Of a DNA stretch of 47,505 bases, positions 2,831 to 43,122 are shown in pieces. Source of the DNA: Lachnospiraceae bacterium (GTDB taxonomy: Bacteria; Bacillota; Clostridia; Lachnospirales; Lachnospiraceae); contig JAGAQI010000126.1 of NCBI GenBank assembly GCA_017622795.1, positions 1 to 47,505 on the forward strand. The letters run 5' to 3'. The position numbers and the translations under genes are program-made. Within the stretch, counting starts at the first letter, position 1. The number at the start of each line of letters is the position of its first letter. A model generated the notes under the pieces. It worked only from the letters and a program-made list of their open reading frames with translations, had not been told where the DNA came from and did no database searches.

Positions 2831-5386
2831 TTATTCTTCAGCGCCTTCGTAGATGTACTTGTTAACAGTTACAGTCTTTGTTACAGTGTAATCTGTTTCA
2901 GCATTTCTGTCATCTAATGGAAGTTCGAAGGTTACCTTCTTGATATATACCTTGCTGGAGTATGCCTTGAAGGTTACGTCTGTAATGTATTTGCTGTCTG
3001 CGGAGAACTTCATGTTTTCCTTAACCAGTGCCATTACCGTAGCAACATCAGCATCATTATCGTCGCGCCATGTAGCATCAATATCTGTTGCTGTCTCATT
3101 ACCAAGAGTATCATCAAACTTCTTGAAGGATACACCGGACTGGGAATTGCTTACATTGATGTTGTAAGTTGTGAGGCTCTTTAATGTGCCACCATCCTTA
3201 GAAGCATACTGAAGTGTTACCTTATAGATACCGGTGGACGCATAGCCGAAGCCATCATTTACTGGATTACCATTTTTATCAACTTCATTAATGCTATTGA
3301 ATGTTAACTTAATCTGACCGTTATCTTCCTTATAACCCCAGTTATCATTTGCACTCTTAGGAGCGGATACGGAGAAGTAGATAACACCGGCATCACCGGT
3401 AGTCTGGCCATCAACCTTTTCTACCATATCTGTTACAGCTGCCATGTTAAGGTCGGATGTAGGATCTAAGTAGTTAACGCCAACGCTTACGGTCTTCTGT
3501 GCATCATGCTTCTTTGTAAACTTGTAGTTAGCGATGTTGTTTACTGCTAAATCAACAGAAGTAGGATCTGCCCATGGACCATACGCAAATGTTGTAGCTG
3601 TGTCAGAAGTAAGCTTTGTATAATATGCATCAGTATTGTAAACCTTTAAGGTTACAGAAGCGTTTGCGGAAGTTGTGATTGTATCATTTTCTTCCTTATC
3701 AAGAGTAATCTTGTACTTGTAAGTGCCATACTTGTCATTACCAATCATGGAAGCAAACTGGTCACCGTCATAATTCATTACGTAATAATCACCGGACTTA
3801 CCGAGAGCACCACACCAGCCATTTGCATTTTCAAATTCAAGTTCAACTTCGTTCTTGGAAGAAGAAGCTACAACTGCAAGGTCTGCAGCACCATTTTCAA
3901 GAGCGATTAAATCACCGTACTGGTCAAATGCACCAAGAATGAAGCTGCCCCATCTTGCGCTACCGTCAGTAGCAGCCTTATTTGTTGTGCTAGCAAGCTT
4001 GTAGCTTACAGCATATCTTGCAGGCTTAACAGTAAGTGTTTTGAAAGCAACATAGATCTTTTCAGCTTCGCCTTCTTCAACATCATTTGGAAGGAAGGAA
4101 ACAATAATGTTTGCTCTACCTTCACCAACAACAGTTAAGGAACCATCTTCTTCAACTGCGATTACCTTATCGTTAGTGGATTCAAATACGAATTCACCAT
4201 AAGGATAAGTATCATCACCTGTTGCAAGAGTATTACCTCTGTTATCCTTTAATGCTGCAGCAAATACTAAATCGTCCGGCTGACCATCACCATCAATGAA
4301 CTCAGATGTGTAGCCCCAGTTGGACCAAACATAGCCATCACCGTCTGTAAGGAAGCTTTCACGAGCTTTATCAGGCTCTGCATCCCACCACCAGGAGTTG
4401 AATACACCAGCGCCAAGAACTGTGAAAGAGAGTGCAGGACGATTCTTAGCAACTACGATGCCAGGATATTCTCTAACAACGTCTTCGCCTTCTTCATCCA
4501 TCCAGGATACAGTTAACATAATCTGAGCAACAGTTGGCTCTGTGAATGTAACTGTGTTGTCGATTAAATCAACAGCTTCGTTTTCAGCGATTAATTCATA
4601 AGCAACTTCTACGTCTGGGTAAAGAGCTGTAACATCAACACCCTGCGCATCATAGTAATGAGCAACTAAAGTTGTAGCAGTGTCATCAGAATCATTTTCA
4701 GGAACGAATGCATTGCCATCGCCATACTTATCTGTCCAGTATTCGAAGTTAACACTGAAGATTTCGCCTGCGCTTGCAACGAGTTCAGCTGTGTAACCGT
4801 CAAATGTGAAGTTATACTTACCACCATCTAAAAGAGTTGTGTAAAGTGTAACAACAGCTTCGTTGTTGTTTACGTTTACGCTCTTAACAGGCTGTTCAAT
4901 GTAAGTATCACCGTAAAGTGTACCAAATACAAGATTGTCAACAGTAACGTTCTTGGATTCAGCAAAAACAAGCTTTACTACATTTGTGCTGAGCTGGTCA
5001 ACTTCAAATGCCTTGAGGTCAACATTACCCTTACCTACAGTAACTTCTACAGAGTGCTTGTAGCTTGCGTCAGCACCTGCTGTGATTGTGATGGTAGCAA
5101 CACCATCCTTAAGAGCTGTTACCTTACCAGCCTTATCAACTGTTGCAACAGTCTCGTCGCTGGAAGCCCACTTGAATGTGCTCTTCCAGTCTGCCGGAGC
5201 ACCGAGGAAGCAGAAATCTGCTACTTCTTCTCCAACTTCCACGTTAACAGCTGTAACTACAGTCTTTGTACCCTGATGAGCGATACCAGCTTCTGCTGCG
5301 AATGCAGAACCAGCCGGAGCTACTAAGGATACAACCATAGCGAGAGCCATAACGAGGGAAAGCTTCTTAAAGAAACTCTTCATCAT
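2831..5386 (-). CDS. Secreted S-layer-like surface protein with bacterial Ig-like domains
   Basis: An 851-aa acidic protein, rich in Asp, Thr, Val and Ala. Residues 1-31 form a signal peptide ending AGSAFAA. A BIG2-type Ig-like domain follows at about 40-117, with the WASSDETVATVDKAGKVTAL signature. A second Ig-like stretch lies near 395-455 (VFESTNDKVIAVEEDGSLTV), and the rest looks beta-rich. I see no SLH repeats, LPXTG motif or C-terminal membrane anchor, so attachment is unexplained. The start is taken at 5386, behind an AAGGAGGA site, rather than at an upstream in-frame codon at 5473 that lacks one. A strong promoter lies at 5525-5553 and a strong terminator follows the stop, as expected for an abundant surface protein. 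Function beyond a structural or surface role is unknown. Confidence 0.8.
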   Translation of the reverse strand: MMKSFFKKLSLVMALAMVVSLVAPAGSAFAAEAGIAHQGTKTVVTAVNVEVGEEVADFCFLGAPADWKSTFKWASSDETVATVDKAGKVTALKDGVATITITAGADASYKHSVEVTVGKGNVDLKAFEVDQLSTNVVKLVFAESKNVTVDNLVFGTLYGDTYIEQPVKSVNVNNNEAVVTLYTTLLDGGKYNFTFDGYTAELVASAGEIFSVNFEYWTDKYGDGNAFVPENDSDDTATTLVAHYYDAQGVDVTALYPDVEVAYELIAENEAVDLIDNTVTFTEPTVAQIMLTVSWMDEEGEDVVREYPGIVVAKNRPALSFTVLGAGVFNSWWWDAEPDKARESFLTDGDGYVWSNWGYTSEFIDGDGQPDDLVFAAALKDNRGNTLATGDDTYPYGEFVFESTNDKVIAVEEDGSLTVVGEGRANIIVSFLPNDVEEGEAEKIYVAFKTLTVKPARYAVSYKLASTTNKAATDGSARWGSFILGAFDQYGDLIALENGAADLAVVASSSKNEVELEFENANGWCGALGKSGDYYVMNYDGDQFASMIGNDKYGTYKYKITLDKEENDTITTSANASVTLKVYNTDAYYTKLTSDTATTFAYGPWADPTSVDLAVNNIANYKFTKKHDAQKTVSVGVNYLDPTSDLNMAAVTDMVEKVDGQTTGDAGVIYFSVSAPKSANDNWGYKEDNGQIKLTFNSINEVDKNGNPVNDGFGYASTGIYKVTLQYASKDGGTLKSLTTYNINVSNSQSGVSFKKFDDTLGNETATDIDATWRDDNDADVATVMALVKENMKFSADSKYITDVTFKAYSSKVYIKKVTFELPLDDRNAETDYTVTKTVTVNKYIYEGAEE

Positions 5387-38111: not shown

Positions 38112-38140
38112 TTGCGAAAAACACCTTTTTTTGGTATGCT
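38112..38140 (+). promoter_or_regulatory. Candidate promoter of the MFS-GH2 fusion gene
   Basis: TTGCGA (38112-38117), 17-bp spacer, TATGCT (38135-38140). The -10 is weaker than others in the window. The spacer is a T-rich stretch. Confidence 0.55.
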
Positions 38141-38178
38141 GAAAACAAGAAAAAACTCGTATGAAGGGGGATTGTCGT

Positions 38179-41100
38179 ATGAAACGTCTCAACAAAAAAT
38201 TCTGGGCAGTACTTGCCGTCTTCGGTCTTATGGGACAGGTAGCCTGGGTAGTGGAAAACATGTATTTTAATGTATTTATTTACAAAATGTTTCATGCCTC
38301 TGCCGCAGAAATTTCCTTAATGGTCAGTGCCAGTTCCGTAGCAGCCACTGTTACCACACTGTTAATCGGTGCCCTGTCCGACCACATCAACCGCAGAAAA
38401 CTTCTGATGAGCGGCGGTTACATTTTATGGGGCGTTTCCATTTTATCCTTCTGTCTCATCCGCATGGATATTTTAACCCCGATTGCCGGAAGCACGGCAG
38501 CCGCAGCTTCCCTGGGTGTTACCCTGGTTATCATTATGGACTGCGTTATGACCTTCTTCGGTTCCTCCGCCAACGATGCCGGCTTCAACGCCTGGATGAC
38601 CGACTGGGGCGACGATTCCTCCCGCGGTAAAATCGAAGGAATCAATTCCATGATGCCGCTGGTATCCATTTTGGTGGTATTCGGCGGTTTTATGTTCTTT
38701 GATTTAGAAAAGGATTCCAGCTGGACCCTGATTTTCCTGATTATCGGTATTGCCACCCTGCTGATTGGTGTTTTAGGTCTCTTTATTGTAGAAGAAGCGC
38801 CGGAGCTGGCAATCAAGCGTGAAGAAGAACAAGCTTCCGAAGTGAAAAAAAATTACTGGGCAACCTTAGTTTACAGCTTCCGCCCGGGTGTTATGAAGGA
38901 AAATCCTCTTCTCTATCTGATTGTACTGGCCTTTGCAGCCTTTAATATTTCTATTCAGACCTACATGCCGTACCTGATTTTATACTATGAAAAAAGTCTC
39001 GGCATGACCGATTACGTGCTTATTATGGCTCCTGCCATTATTGTTGCGGCAATCATCACCGCATTTTACGGCAAATTGTTTGATATGACCGGCTTTAAAA
39101 CCTCCGTCATGCCAACCCTGTTACTGTTAATGGCAGGTTATGTCCTGCTTTTCTTTGGACGTACCACCCCGGTTGTATTTACCGGCTCCCTTCTTATGAT
39201 GACCGGCTATCTTACCGGTATGTCCGTCTTTGGCGCCATGATCCGGAGCCTGATTCCGGAAAGCAGGGCCGGGCAGTTCCAGGGCATCCGTATTATCGGA
39301 CAGGTTCTGATTCCGGGCATCATCGGTCCGTCCATTGGTGCGGCAGTATTAAAAAACGCAGAAACCATCACCAATAATGACGGTACCACTTCCTTTATTC
39401 CTAACGAAAACATTTTCCTTGCGGCTTTTTTGGTTGCGGTCGGAGTCTTACTTGTTCTGGCAGGCATTTTCCGATTTGTACGTAACGGACACTACCCTCT
39501 TATGAGTGAAGCCGGAGAACAGCTCGGCGATTCCGCCGAAGTTTGGCAGGAATATCCAAGACCGCAATTAAAGAGAAACAGCTGGTACAGCTTAAACGGT
39601 GAGTGGAAATTAAATAACGGTACCTGTCTGGTTCCGTTTCCTCCGCAATCCGAACTGTCCGGCTACAAAAAGCACGTCGGCAGCAAGCTGATTTATGAAA
39701 AGAAATTTATTGTTCCGAAGCCGGAAGCCGGTATCCGCACCCTGCTACGTTTTGAAGCGGTGGACCAGCTGGCAGAGGTTTATTTGAACGGTGTCCTTCT
39801 GGGCAGGCATGCCGGCGGATATTTACCGTTTTCCTTCGATATTTCCAACGTTCTTTATACCAATAAAGAAAACCTGCTGGTAGTCAAGGTTACCGACCGT
39901 CTCTCTACCCGCTATCCGTACGGCAAACAGACGAAAAAGCGGGGCGGCATGTGGTACACCCCGGTCAGCGGCATTTGGAAGAGCGTCTGGCTGGAGCAGG
40001 TGTCCGATACTTATGTCAAAGACCTGAAGCTTACACCGGATTTAGACGGTGTACATATTTCCTTTGCCACCAACCATCCGGAACGTGCGGTCCACGCAAA
40101 GGCACTTGTCACCCTTCACACCGGCGAGCAAATGGAATTTTCCATGTCCGGCAACTCCGGTTACTTAAAACTCCGTGACATCATTACCGCAGACGGAACT
40201 CCATATGTTCCGGAACTCTGGACCACGGAAAATCCGTATTTGTACCGCATGACTCTTTCCGTAGACCAGGACGAGTTGGAAACCTACTTTGCCCTGCGTA
40301 CTATTGAAATTATTAATAAGGACGGCGTGAACCGTGTCTGCTTAAACGGCAAACCAATCTTCCTCCATGGTGTTCTGGACCAGGGATATTTCTGTGACGG
40401 CATCTTCCTTCCTGCGGAAGAAAAAGAGTTTGAACGTGACATTCTCCGTATGAAGGAGCTGGGCTTTAACATGCTCCGGAAGCATATCAAAATTGAGCCG
40501 GAAGCCTTTTACTACTATTGTGACCTTCACGGAATGCTGGTAGTCCAGGATATGGTCAACAGCGGAAGCTATTCTTTCCTCAGGGACACCGCACTGCCAA
40601 CCATCGGCATGAAAAAACTGGTGGACACCTTGCGTTTCTTCCCTGCGAAACAGAAAAAATTTTGGGAGCAGCATATGAAAGAAACCCTGTCCCACTTATA
40701 TAACCACCCATCTATTGTGGTTTATACCCTGTTCAACGAAGGCTGGGGACAGTTTGACAGTGACCGCATGTATACCATTGCAAAGAAAATGGATCCGTCC
40801 CGCTTATATGACTCCACCTCCGGCTGGTTTGCAAGAAAAAAGAATGACTTTGACAGTCTGCATGTTTACTTTGGCAACTTAGAGCCGCAGCCTGCCACCC
40901 GTCCGATGTTTATTTCCGAGTTCGGCGGTTGTGCATATCCTGTGGAAAATCATATTTATGCAAAATACGCCTCTTACGGCTACGGCAACTGCAAAAATGC
41001 GGACGAAGTTTCCGAAAAGGTTTGGGATGCTTATAACAAAACCATTCTTCCTGTTATCGAAAAGGGCTGCTGCGGTGCGGTTTATACCCAGCTCTCCGAC

Positions 41101-41211
41101 GTAGAAGACGAAATCAACGGCTTCTACACCTACGACCGCAAGGTATGTAAGGTAAACGTGGAAGAAATGCAGAAGCTGCGCAAAGAAATAGACAATAGAA
41201 TTTGTTCATAA
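38179..41211 (+). CDS. MFS transporter fused to a GH2 family glycoside hydrolase
   Basis: One uninterrupted 1010-aa ORF. Residues 1-440 are a 12-helix major facilitator, starting MKRLNKKFWAVLAVFGLMGQ, with the SDHINRRKLLMSGGY loop typical of MFS. After a short linker, residues about 455-1010 make a complete GH2 enzyme: the WQEYPRPQLKRNSWYSLNGE entry, a sugar-binding jellyroll (AEVYLNGVLLGRHAGGYLPF), an Ig-like middle and a TIM barrel. The acid/base Glu854 is in YTLFNEGWGQFD and the nucleophile Glu914 in FISEFGG; both are intact. The substrate is probably a beta-galactoside or similar; the NxKG motif of glucuronidases is not seen. The start follows AAGGGGG. The GH2 would lie in the cytosol, so uptake and cleavage are joined. 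Confidence 0.9.
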   Translation: MKRLNKKFWAVLAVFGLMGQVAWVVENMYFNVFIYKMFHASAAEISLMVSASSVAATVTTLLIGALSDHINRRKLLMSGGYILWGVSILSFCLIRMDILTPIAGSTAAAASLGVTLVIIMDCVMTFFGSSANDAGFNAWMTDWGDDSSRGKIEGINSMMPLVSILVVFGGFMFFDLEKDSSWTLIFLIIGIATLLIGVLGLFIVEEAPELAIKREEEQASEVKKNYWATLVYSFRPGVMKENPLLYLIVLAFAAFNISIQTYMPYLILYYEKSLGMTDYVLIMAPAIIVAAIITAFYGKLFDMTGFKTSVMPTLLLLMAGYVLLFFGRTTPVVFTGSLLMMTGYLTGMSVFGAMIRSLIPESRAGQFQGIRIIGQVLIPGIIGPSIGAAVLKNAETITNNDGTTSFIPNENIFLAAFLVAVGVLLVLAGIFRFVRNGHYPLMSEAGEQLGDSAEVWQEYPRPQLKRNSWYSLNGEWKLNNGTCLVPFPPQSELSGYKKHVGSKLIYEKKFIVPKPEAGIRTLLRFEAVDQLAEVYLNGVLLGRHAGGYLPFSFDISNVLYTNKENLLVVKVTDRLSTRYPYGKQTKKRGGMWYTPVSGIWKSVWLEQVSDTYVKDLKLTPDLDGVHISFATNHPERAVHAKALVTLHTGEQMEFSMSGNSGYLKLRDIITADGTPYVPELWTTENPYLYRMTLSVDQDELETYFALRTIEIINKDGVNRVCLNGKPIFLHGVLDQGYFCDGIFLPAEEKEFERDILRMKELGFNMLRKHIKIEPEAFYYYCDLHGMLVVQDMVNSGSYSFLRDTALPTIGMKKLVDTLRFFPAKQKKFWEQHMKETLSHLYNHPSIVVYTLFNEGWGQFDSDRMYTIAKKMDPSRLYDSTSGWFARKKNDFDSLHVYFGNLEPQPATRPMFISEFGGCAYPVENHIYAKYASYGYGNCKNADEVSEKVWDAYNKTILPVIEKGCCGAVYTQLSDVEDEINGFYTYDRKVCKVNVEEMQKLRKEIDNRICS

Positions 41212-41316: not shown

Positions 41317-41377
41317 CTCTTAGCACAACTCCATAAAGCCACCTATTTGATGACTGACTATCCGTAGTTGCTAAGAG
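41317..41377 (+). promoter_or_regulatory. Hairpin in the chemoreceptor leader just before the RBS
   Basis: CTCTTAGC (41317-41324) pairs with GCTAAGAG (41370-41377), with AACT/AGTT extending the stem and a small ACTA/TAGT hairpin inside. It closes directly before GGGGAAGGAG. It may control translation. It does not match c-di-GMP riboswitch consensus as far as I can see. Confidence 0.5.
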
Positions 41378-41391
41378 GGGAAGGAGTACTT

Positions 41392-43122
41392 ATGAGTAAG
41401 ACAAAAAAGAAGGGAAAATTTTTAAACTTTAAGGGGATGCGTATCGAAGAACGGTTACGCAAAGCATTTAACATTATTATACTGATTGCTTCCGTTGCAT
41501 CTGTTGTAGGCATTGCATGTTTGTTGCTTGTAGTAGCTAACTTCAAAAACGCCATGAACAATTATGCACTGCCGCAGGGTGACATTGCCTTGTTCATGAA
41601 TGAGTACGCAGAGTGCCGTTCCAATACCCGCGGTATTATCGGTTATGAAGACCAGAACTTAATTGACCAGCTGGTAGACAAACACGATGACCGCGTAAAA
41701 AACACCAAAGCAAAATACGAAGCAATCCACGAAACCATTGTTACCAAAGAAGGCGAAGATGCTTATAAAAAAATCGGAATTGCCTTGGATGCTTATCTTG
41801 CAAAGGAAGCAGAAATTATTGAACTTGGTGCCAATACAGATACAGAAAAAAACCGTCAGGCCCAGCAGATGGCCATCAACGACCTGACCCCGTTATACGA
41901 AGAACTTGACAACGCAACCTTAGCACTCATGAACATTAACATCGAAAAAGAACACCAGATGGAAGTTATTTGTGAAGCTTTGGAATGGGGTGCCATCATC
42001 CTCATGGTTGTTTTAGTTATTTCTGCAAGCATCATCGCAAAGAGAATTGCCTCCATTATTTCCAAGGGTATTTCCAAGCCGCTGGCACAGTTGGAGGATC
42101 GTTTCGGAACCTTCGCCGAAGGCGACATCAAGTCCGAATTCCCAACCTCCAATGCCCAGGATGAAATTGCGGGACTTATGAACTCCTCCCATGACATGGC
42201 AGAGCGCTTAAAGATGATTATTCTCGACGTAGAAAGAATGTGTGCCGAAATGAGCAACGGCAACTTCAACGTAGAGTCCGATTGTGCAGACGCTTATGTG
42301 GGTGACCTTGCCGAATTATATGTTTCCATCAAGAACATGAATATCAATGTCAGCAACGCTTTAAGCGAAGTAGAAGAAGTTTCCAACCAGGTAAACGGCG
42401 GTGCTTCCAACTTGGCAGAAGCAGCTTCCAGCCTTGCCGAAGGCGCAACAGACCAGGCTGCTTCCGTAGAAGAAATGTTAGCTACCATGAACACCGTATC
42501 CGACGGTTTAAAGTACACCGCACAAAGTGTAGACGAAGCTTATGTACAGGCACTTGCCTGTGCTAACGACGCACAGAACAGCCACAAGGAAATGAACAAC
42601 ATGGTTGAAACCATGAACCGTATCAGCGAAACTTCCAAGAAGATTGAAAATATCATTGCAGAAATCGAAAATATCGCAAGCCAGACCAACCTGCTCTCCT
42701 TAAATGCTTCCATCGAAGCAGCCAGAGCCGGTGATGCAGGCCGCGGTTTTGCCGTAGTTGCCGATGAAATCCGTGACCTGGCAGACCAGAGTGCTAAGTC
42801 CGCAGTGGACACCCGCGAACTGGTTAACAACACCCTCCGCGAAATTGAAGAAGGCAGCCGCGTTGCCAACCGTACTGCCGACGTATTATTCGGTGTGGTA
42901 GATGCCATTCAGAAGATTGCAGAAACCTCCAAGACCTTATCCGAAAACACTCAGGTACAGGCCGAGGCAGTAGAACAGGCAGACCAGGGTATTGCCCGCA
43001 TTTCCGAGGTTGTACAGAGCAACTCCGCAGCTGCAGAAGAATCCTACGCAACCAGTGAAGAATTATCCGCACAGGCAGCAACCATGCACAATCTGGTAGC
43101 TCAGTTCCAGCTGAAAAAGTAA
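41392..43122 (+). CDS. Methyl-accepting chemotaxis protein
   Basis: A 576-aa transmembrane chemoreceptor. TM1 is at about 27-49 ([20 protein letters not shown]). A four-helix-bundle-type sensor outside the membrane follows, then TM2 at about 198-220 ([17 protein letters not shown]), a HAMP segment and the long coiled-coil signalling domain with its conserved tip ([40 protein letters not shown]). The ligand is unknown. It starts at 41392 behind AAGGAG; the earlier in-frame codon at 41368 lies in the leader hairpin. No chemotaxis genes are near. It lies 181 bp after the MFS-GH2 gene, with its own promoter. Confidence 0.95.

Follow-up and report, generated by a model that had tools for sequence, protein, structure and literature searches.

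Does the long open reading frame on the forward strand of the window, i.e. the whole 47,505-nucleotide stretch of DNA analysed here, encode one genuine protein in which a transporter of the major facilitator superfamily (MFS) is joined to a complete GH2 glycosidase, and what could such a link do? As a rule, a transporter and the hydrolase that processes what it carries are separate proteins. LacY and LacZ are encoded by operon neighbours, the transporter beside its enzyme, but they are separate chains, while LacS is a sugar transporter whose fused IIA domain is regulatory and not a hydrolase.

The frame is open from 38161 or 38179 to a TAA stop ending at 41211, and the MFS-GH2 fusion gene (38179..41211, + strand) comprises 1010 residues counted from the ATG at 38179. 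This ATG is the likelier start, since a ribosome-binding stretch, AAGGGGG, is present at 38164..38170 (+). A putative promoter, TTGCGA-17-TATGCT, lies at 38112..38140 (+); it was chosen by its conservation in four genomes, the promoter scan tool having listed other sites. The window, L053, L052 and L054, which together represent the four genomes of the genus, all have it at the equivalent spot, and its matches in 11 of the 177 loci searched are all copies of that same promoter place, with 1 match in the window for 0.01 expected. In the encoded chain, a 12-helix MFS transporter (residues 1-436) passes into a complete GH2 enzyme with no extra linker inserted between the two. Pfam assigned MFS_1 to residues 31-384 (3.9e-33), Glyco_hydro_2_N to 496-605, Glyco_hydro_2 to 611-703 and Glyco_hydro_2_C to 719-882, with PF02837, PF00703 and PF02836 all above cut-off in the GH2 half. 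The AlphaFold2 model of the full fusion (pLDDT 82.2, pTM 0.71), whose input alignment consisted of 22 fused proteins, the window's own included, exhibits 12 long helices, which finish at residue 436, then a helix at 444-449 and the GH2 domains. No indel or stop interrupts the frame at the junction in the 92% congener L053 (genome G002) or in the 79% congener L052 (G001). The single unbroken frame, with a full MFS and then a full GH2, that had been read from this sequence in a preliminary description is thus borne out by the ORF, by Pfam, by AlphaFold2 and by the congeners. The MFS-GH2 single chain is real and conserved, and both of its halves are under purifying selection: in comparison with L053, where synonymous differences are found at 0.40-0.61 of sites, dN/dS is 0.048 for MFS residues 1-410, 0.043 for the GH2 half and 0.196 for residues 437-458.

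The fusion was found in a subset of Clostridia, a good number of which come from animal guts. Of the congeners, G002 (92%) and G001 (79%) carry the same full-length protein and G003 carries the GH2 half only. In the family sample, 146 of 397 genomes match at 1e-40 and 13 have the single-frame fusion. These are the window's own genome, G001 and 11 genomes spread over 10 other genera; all but the first were checked as ORFs. The class sample (391 genomes) contains the one-frame fusion in the own genome and in five others from three other families; additionally, one frame of G498 that reaches the contig end matches residues 232-985, and in G610, of a fourth family, MFS and GH2 share a frame that is broken by just one stop (locus L152). 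In the phylum sample, 3 of 398 genomes match at 1e-100, the own genome being the only fused one. Two named strains also carry the fusion, Acetatifactor muris DSM 23669 (L074) and [Clostridium] fimetarium DSM 9179 (L110). Other single-chain MFS-GH2 proteins, a search for which had been suggested in the preliminary description, therefore exist in congeners, in other genera and in named strains. Matches to the query occur in 101 plasmid records; in no record does one stretch cover 80% of it, and the five matches listed fall in the GH2 half. A broken copy of the fusion gene, in separate pieces, occurs in G366 (L070:6914-8193), and a split MFS-GH2 pair is present in two metagenome-assembled genomes titled as spirochaetes (L117, L136), possibly by transfer from Clostridia.

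A set of 95 loci was then formed from the loci of a named-genome scan with the MFS half (of which the best 80 of 553 relatives were kept), from a further group of loci and from the window, leaving out the six duplicate, broken or cut rows that are named below for the trees. It holds 35 fused genes, 32 split MFS-GH2 pairs, 1 reverse split (L068), 26 MFS genes alone and 1 GH2 gene alone (L054), so that the 94 MFS-bearing loci have GH2 fused in 35, downstream in 32, upstream in 1 and not nearby in 26; since 80 loci are the best of 553 relatives, the proportion of fused genes does not represent the population at large. In the split pairs, measured on ORFs taken from the first start codon, the two ORFs overlap or are at most 1 nt apart in 27 of 32, and the remaining five are 47 to 1055 nt apart. 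Adjacent pairs such as L067, L078 and L152 present the same two families in the same order as the fusion, but as two chains, with a stop codon or a frame change between them. At the L152 junction, near 3138 (- strand), the stop codon directly precedes the GH2 start codon, one codon from fusion. In some of the MFS-alone loci a downstream GH2 could be unseen because the stretch ends soon after the gene, within about 350 nt in L094, L109 and L124. A related GH2 is encoded elsewhere in 19 of the 24 MFS-alone genomes searched (of the 26 loci), each at 8.3e-113 or better, and no related GH2 was found in the other 5 of these 24. In comparison, 28 of the 391 class-sample genomes match the full protein at 1e-100; this comparison is an indication only, because the two counts come from different queries and samples and the sequence of some loci stops close to the gene. 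Fusion, adjacency and co-occurrence in genomes together tie this MFS family to this GH2 clade. It had been pointed out that separate genes in related genomes could make the fusion a chance join; separate genes do occur, but these two-gene relatives stand beside many conserved fusions, and the gene is therefore not a chance join.

For the trees, L083, L091, L110 and L133, judged to be the same genomes as L060, L057, L061 and L062, were dropped, as were L070 (broken copy) and L134 (cut by the contig end), and a second MFS tree was made also without L068, L069 and L071, which have long branches. The MFS tree (91 rows) needs 13 changes between the fused and unfused states, at least 11 of them forced by well-supported branches; for the GH2 tree, made from 69 rows by a quick method, the figures are 5 and at least 4. 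In the midpoint-rooted GH2 tree the fused rows are found in the window's clade (25 of 29), in an Oscillospiraceae-type group (8 of 10) and in the pair L061/L062. Such change counts cannot separate gain of the fusion from its loss; the fusion has arisen or been lost several times. MFS and GH2 distances correlate with r values of 0.67 for 67 loci, 0.82 for the 35 fused and 0.73 for the 32 split ones, and 0 of 2000 permutations was as high in each set. In the split pairs L078 and L082, the MFS is sister to that of the window and the GH2 is distant and on a long branch, which reflects either a partner swap or a fast-evolving GH2.

We examined the junction, residues 437-458 (39487..39552, +), to which a similar leader (L.TEAGE-like) corresponds at the opening of most unfused GH2 proteins. 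From the end of helix 12 to the YPRP motif, fused proteins have 19-106 residues, with a median of 23 (35 rows), and unfused GH2 proteins have a similar 6-64 residues from their start to this motif (34 rows). As the leaders of the unfused enzymes resemble the stretch after helix 12 in kind and in length, no linker had to be added, and in-frame loss of the transporter stop would be the simplest path to fusion. In L075, L076 and L077 the stretch from helix 12 to YPRP is enlarged to 62, 106 and 104 residues, respectively. In G003 (L054), the flanks on both sides and TTGCGA-17-TATGCT are kept and the MFS half is missing, no match to it being found in this 86%-complete genome. The remaining GH2 (L054 6846-8701) has 597 aa and its own start, and its dN/dS against the congeners is 0.09-0.12. 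The lone GH2 being still under purifying selection, the enzyme has been kept in G003 without a tether.

The MFS half (residues 1-436; 38179..39486, +) presents the MFS_1 profile and the 12 transmembrane helices expected of the superfamily and, when modelled alone with AlphaFold2, reaches a pLDDT of 92.6. Lysine and arginine counts are 4, 3, 2, 6, 1 and 2 in the inner loops and 1 in each outer loop; together with the even helix number, they fit a predicted cytosolic location of both the N- and the C-terminus of the fusion. Among the NCBIfam profiles no named MFS subfamily cut-off was reached, the best score being that of TIGR00893 with 39 bits against a cut-off of 395, and no PDB sequence matched the MFS half at 0.01. 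The nearest folds in the fold search include exporters and antiporters.

The GH2 half (residues 459-1010; 39553..41208, +) is, by its sequence, nearest to the group-III furanosidases (GH2_18/GH2_19) and away from the beta-galactosidases, and a furanosidase activity is predicted. The nearest solved structures by sequence are 7sf2 (6.5e-93), 9j6n (3.3e-75), 9j6m (2e-74) and 7xyr (8.7e-54), after which the PDB sequence search drops sharply to a glucuronidase at 3.6e-20 and then to weaker matches; Foldseek ranked the neighbours in the same order. The best match both by sequence and by fold (TM 0.87 on target), PDB 7SF2 of Bacteroides cellulosilyticus, is titled beta-galactosidase; it differs in being unfused, and the likeness here is one of sequence and fold. 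ORF1110 of Streptomyces sp. JHA19 (9J6M/9J6N, GH2_18, a beta-D-galactofuranosidase) gives a 250-bit match over residues 457-997 and shares the GH2 domains, at ~30% identity to the GH2 half, but it carries a signal peptide and an AbfB domain and no transporter. As described in PMC4560423, ORF1110 acts on pNP-Galf and not on pNP-Araf or pNP-galactopyranoside, and D423A and E464A are its most damaging mutants. The counterparts of these two most sensitive residues are D791 (40549..40551, +) and E854, which align with residues 400 and 441 of the 9J6M/9J6N chain, each 23 below D423 and E464; we infer that this shift is a numbering offset, assumed to be constant. E854 belongs to the catalytic acid/base motif N853-E854 (40735..40740, +), while E914 (40918..40920, +) is the expected nucleophile, a role that we take from general knowledge of the GH2 family. 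Both N853-E854 and E914 are invariant in 14 fused rows (alignment A2) and in 22 (alignment A3), in agreement with the two catalytic glutamates, 854 and 914, first recognized in the window's protein.

Group III is described in PMC12243196 as a clade whose reported activities are those of furanosidases, alpha-L-arabinofuranosidases among them, with a threonine in place of the tryptophan of the -1 subsite as its hallmark. T970, invariant in the same 14 and 22 fused rows, is a candidate for this threonine. The same source indicates that GH2_19 enzymes such as 7XYR, also of group III, have a secretion signal in ~10% of cases, which would make most of them cytosolic, as expected of the GH2 half, and that 7XYR has lost the NE motif, which the fusion keeps. 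The cleavage of an intact beta-glycoside after uptake, as first proposed for this protein, is thus retained in outline as putative glycoside uptake, but the substrate has to be narrowed to a small furanoside, because the enzyme is nearest to beta-D-galactofuranosidase and alpha-L-arabinofuranosidase.

Which sugar the furanoside contains was approached through the genomes. In 2 of the 24 MFS-alone genomes examined (those of L120 and L122), a related GH2 and a C-terminal galactokinase-like domain form one chain; these group-III-like GH2 proteins fused to a GHMP kinase lie at L166:1967-4612 and L167:2160-4856, in two Clostridia genomes. The partner domain is called galactokinase-like because its TIGR00131 scores, 98 and 116 bits, fall below the galactokinase cut-off of 226.65; the GHMP N-domain and the galactose-binding signature are above the Pfam cut-off, and 11 of the 11 distinct solved sequences matched by the L166 domain at 1e-5 are named galactokinase. 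The genome of L166 is titled Candidatus Crickella caballi. The search for sugar genes covered 28 genome rows, G003 and 27 that carry the fusion; three are repeats, as judged from identical coordinates, leaving 25 distinct ones. A galactokinase-family match was obtained in 28 of 28 rows, 23 above cut-off, and L-arabinose isomerase (AraA) in 15 of 28, i.e. in 15 of the 25 distinct ones, no match being found in the other 13 rows (10 distinct). In genomes at least 90% complete, galactokinase is present in 9 of 9 and AraA in 4 of 9; among 14 control genomes the numbers are 8 and 5, which shows galactokinase to be widespread in any case. AraA is present in each of the four genomes of the window's genus, and the genus has galactokinase too. 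This pattern, together with the galactokinase-like fusion, favours galactofuranosides, with arabinofuranosides as the less probable substrates.

Considering these data, we propose a bifunctional chain in which the MFS would import a small furanoside and the tethered cytosolic GH2 would cleave it, a reading of the sequences, from transport and substrate to activity and benefit of the link, whose chances we judge to be evenly balanced. The substrate taken up by the MFS half, probably through cation symport, would be a small glycoside that contains a furanose, a beta-D-galactofuranoside being the most likely one; the GH2 half, held through its own N-terminal leader at the cytosolic end of helix 12, would hydrolyse it, and the freed galactose would enter the Leloir pathway. 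The covalent link would fix a 1:1 stoichiometry and place the enzyme at the membrane where the substrate arrives, which may favour net uptake by trapping, a rigid channel being unlikely. The fusion itself may arise when overlapping genes of an operon lose the stop codon of the transporter. The linker of 19-106 residues, the loss of the transporter in G003 and the distant GH2 of L078/L082 speak against an obligatory tight coupling. A bolder version, which we hold only tentatively, is that of a recurrent, self-contained galactofuranoside 'permease-hydrolase' in which hydrolysis drives net uptake, the parallel fusions, of transporter with hydrolase here and of hydrolase with kinase in L166/L167, revealing a hidden galactofuranose catabolism in Clostridia.

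The same protein might instead act on an alpha-L-arabinofuranoside derived from plant arabinan or arabinogalactan and release L-arabinose. Such glycans are common in herbivore guts. AraA is present in every genome of the genus examined, and group III, as described in PMC12243196, also holds alpha-L-arabinofuranosidases. However, AraA was not found in nearly half of the rows searched and is present in fewer than half of the most complete genomes, the kinase partner in L166/L167 is galactokinase-like, and ORF1110, the closest relative with both a structure and an activity among those examined, is galactofuranose-specific (PMC4560423), which makes this substrate rather doubtful. Another reading, which overlaps the preferred one and does not exclude it, is that the link is catalytically meaningless, a near-neutral fusion of overlapping genes whose halves work independently and merely share expression. 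The frequent switches between fused and unfused states, the variable linker length, the survival of GH2 without MFS in G003 and the single stop codon that separates L152 from fusion would be explained in this way. Nevertheless, fusion persists across large clades, as in the 25 of 29 rows of the window's clade, and the two halves agree better in fused than in split loci (0.82 and 0.73, a raw difference with no significance attached); we regard a meaningless link as a real, though minority, possibility.

The direction of transport may also be questioned, for the MFS half could export the freed sugar or serve as a membrane anchor or sensor, since its closest folds include exporters and antiporters and no named sugar-importer family scored above cut-off. 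Generic MFS fold likeness says little on direction, however, a cytosolic hydrolase needs an intracellular substrate, and the MFS dN/dS of 0.05 points to stronger purifying selection than an anchor should need, all of which renders this role improbable. As for an assembly or sequencing artefact, the window is one of the 147 contigs of its genome, but the same frame in congeners and in named-strain genomes leaves this explanation with a negligible chance.

The observation made on the window alone was right and is more general than a single sequence could show. No MFS-GH2 fusion of this sort was found in a literature search, which covered mostly top-ranked matches, nor was a paper joining galactofuranose catabolism, galactofuranosidase, transporter and gut, most subscription papers being outside its scope. 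One pair exists in nature in fused, overlapping, dispersed and secondarily shortened versions, one of them a stop codon from fusion, and with these natural versions the advantage of linking uptake to the first enzymatic step becomes directly testable. In the proposed bifunctional reading, the fusions would also act as a functional pointer, predicting that Clostridia have an MFS family for galactofuranoside import and a route for galactofuranose in the cytosol.

Neighbouring genes were also considered as a pointer to the substrate and were rejected. Clustering of the neighbours, and Pfam scans that covered 37 distinct neighbour proteins and 7 from the window, revealed no sugar gene recurring beside the fusions; the clusters that did recur were those of an ABC ATPase, at 13 loci, and of a chemotaxis receptor, at 6. 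Among the neighbour ORFs of the loci examined, nothing related to the galactokinase-like domain of L166 was found. Sugar-related neighbours were each observed at a single locus, i.e. a large GH2 protein in L058, a 3-keto-disaccharide hydrolase in L157, a PfkB kinase in L128 and a SIS-domain protein in L088. In L157, one protein type lies on both sides of the fusion gene (118-1325 and 4600-5190); the protein at 735-1325 is a member of the 3-keto-disaccharide hydrolase family by Pfam, while the other two only look alike. The PfkB-family sugar kinase gene of L128 (1913-2809) overlaps the end of an unfused transporter. In the window, a methyl-accepting chemotaxis protein (41368-43122) adjoins the fusion; relatives of it occur near the locus in two congeners (L053, L054) as well as in L055, L062 and L070, which may be due to chance.
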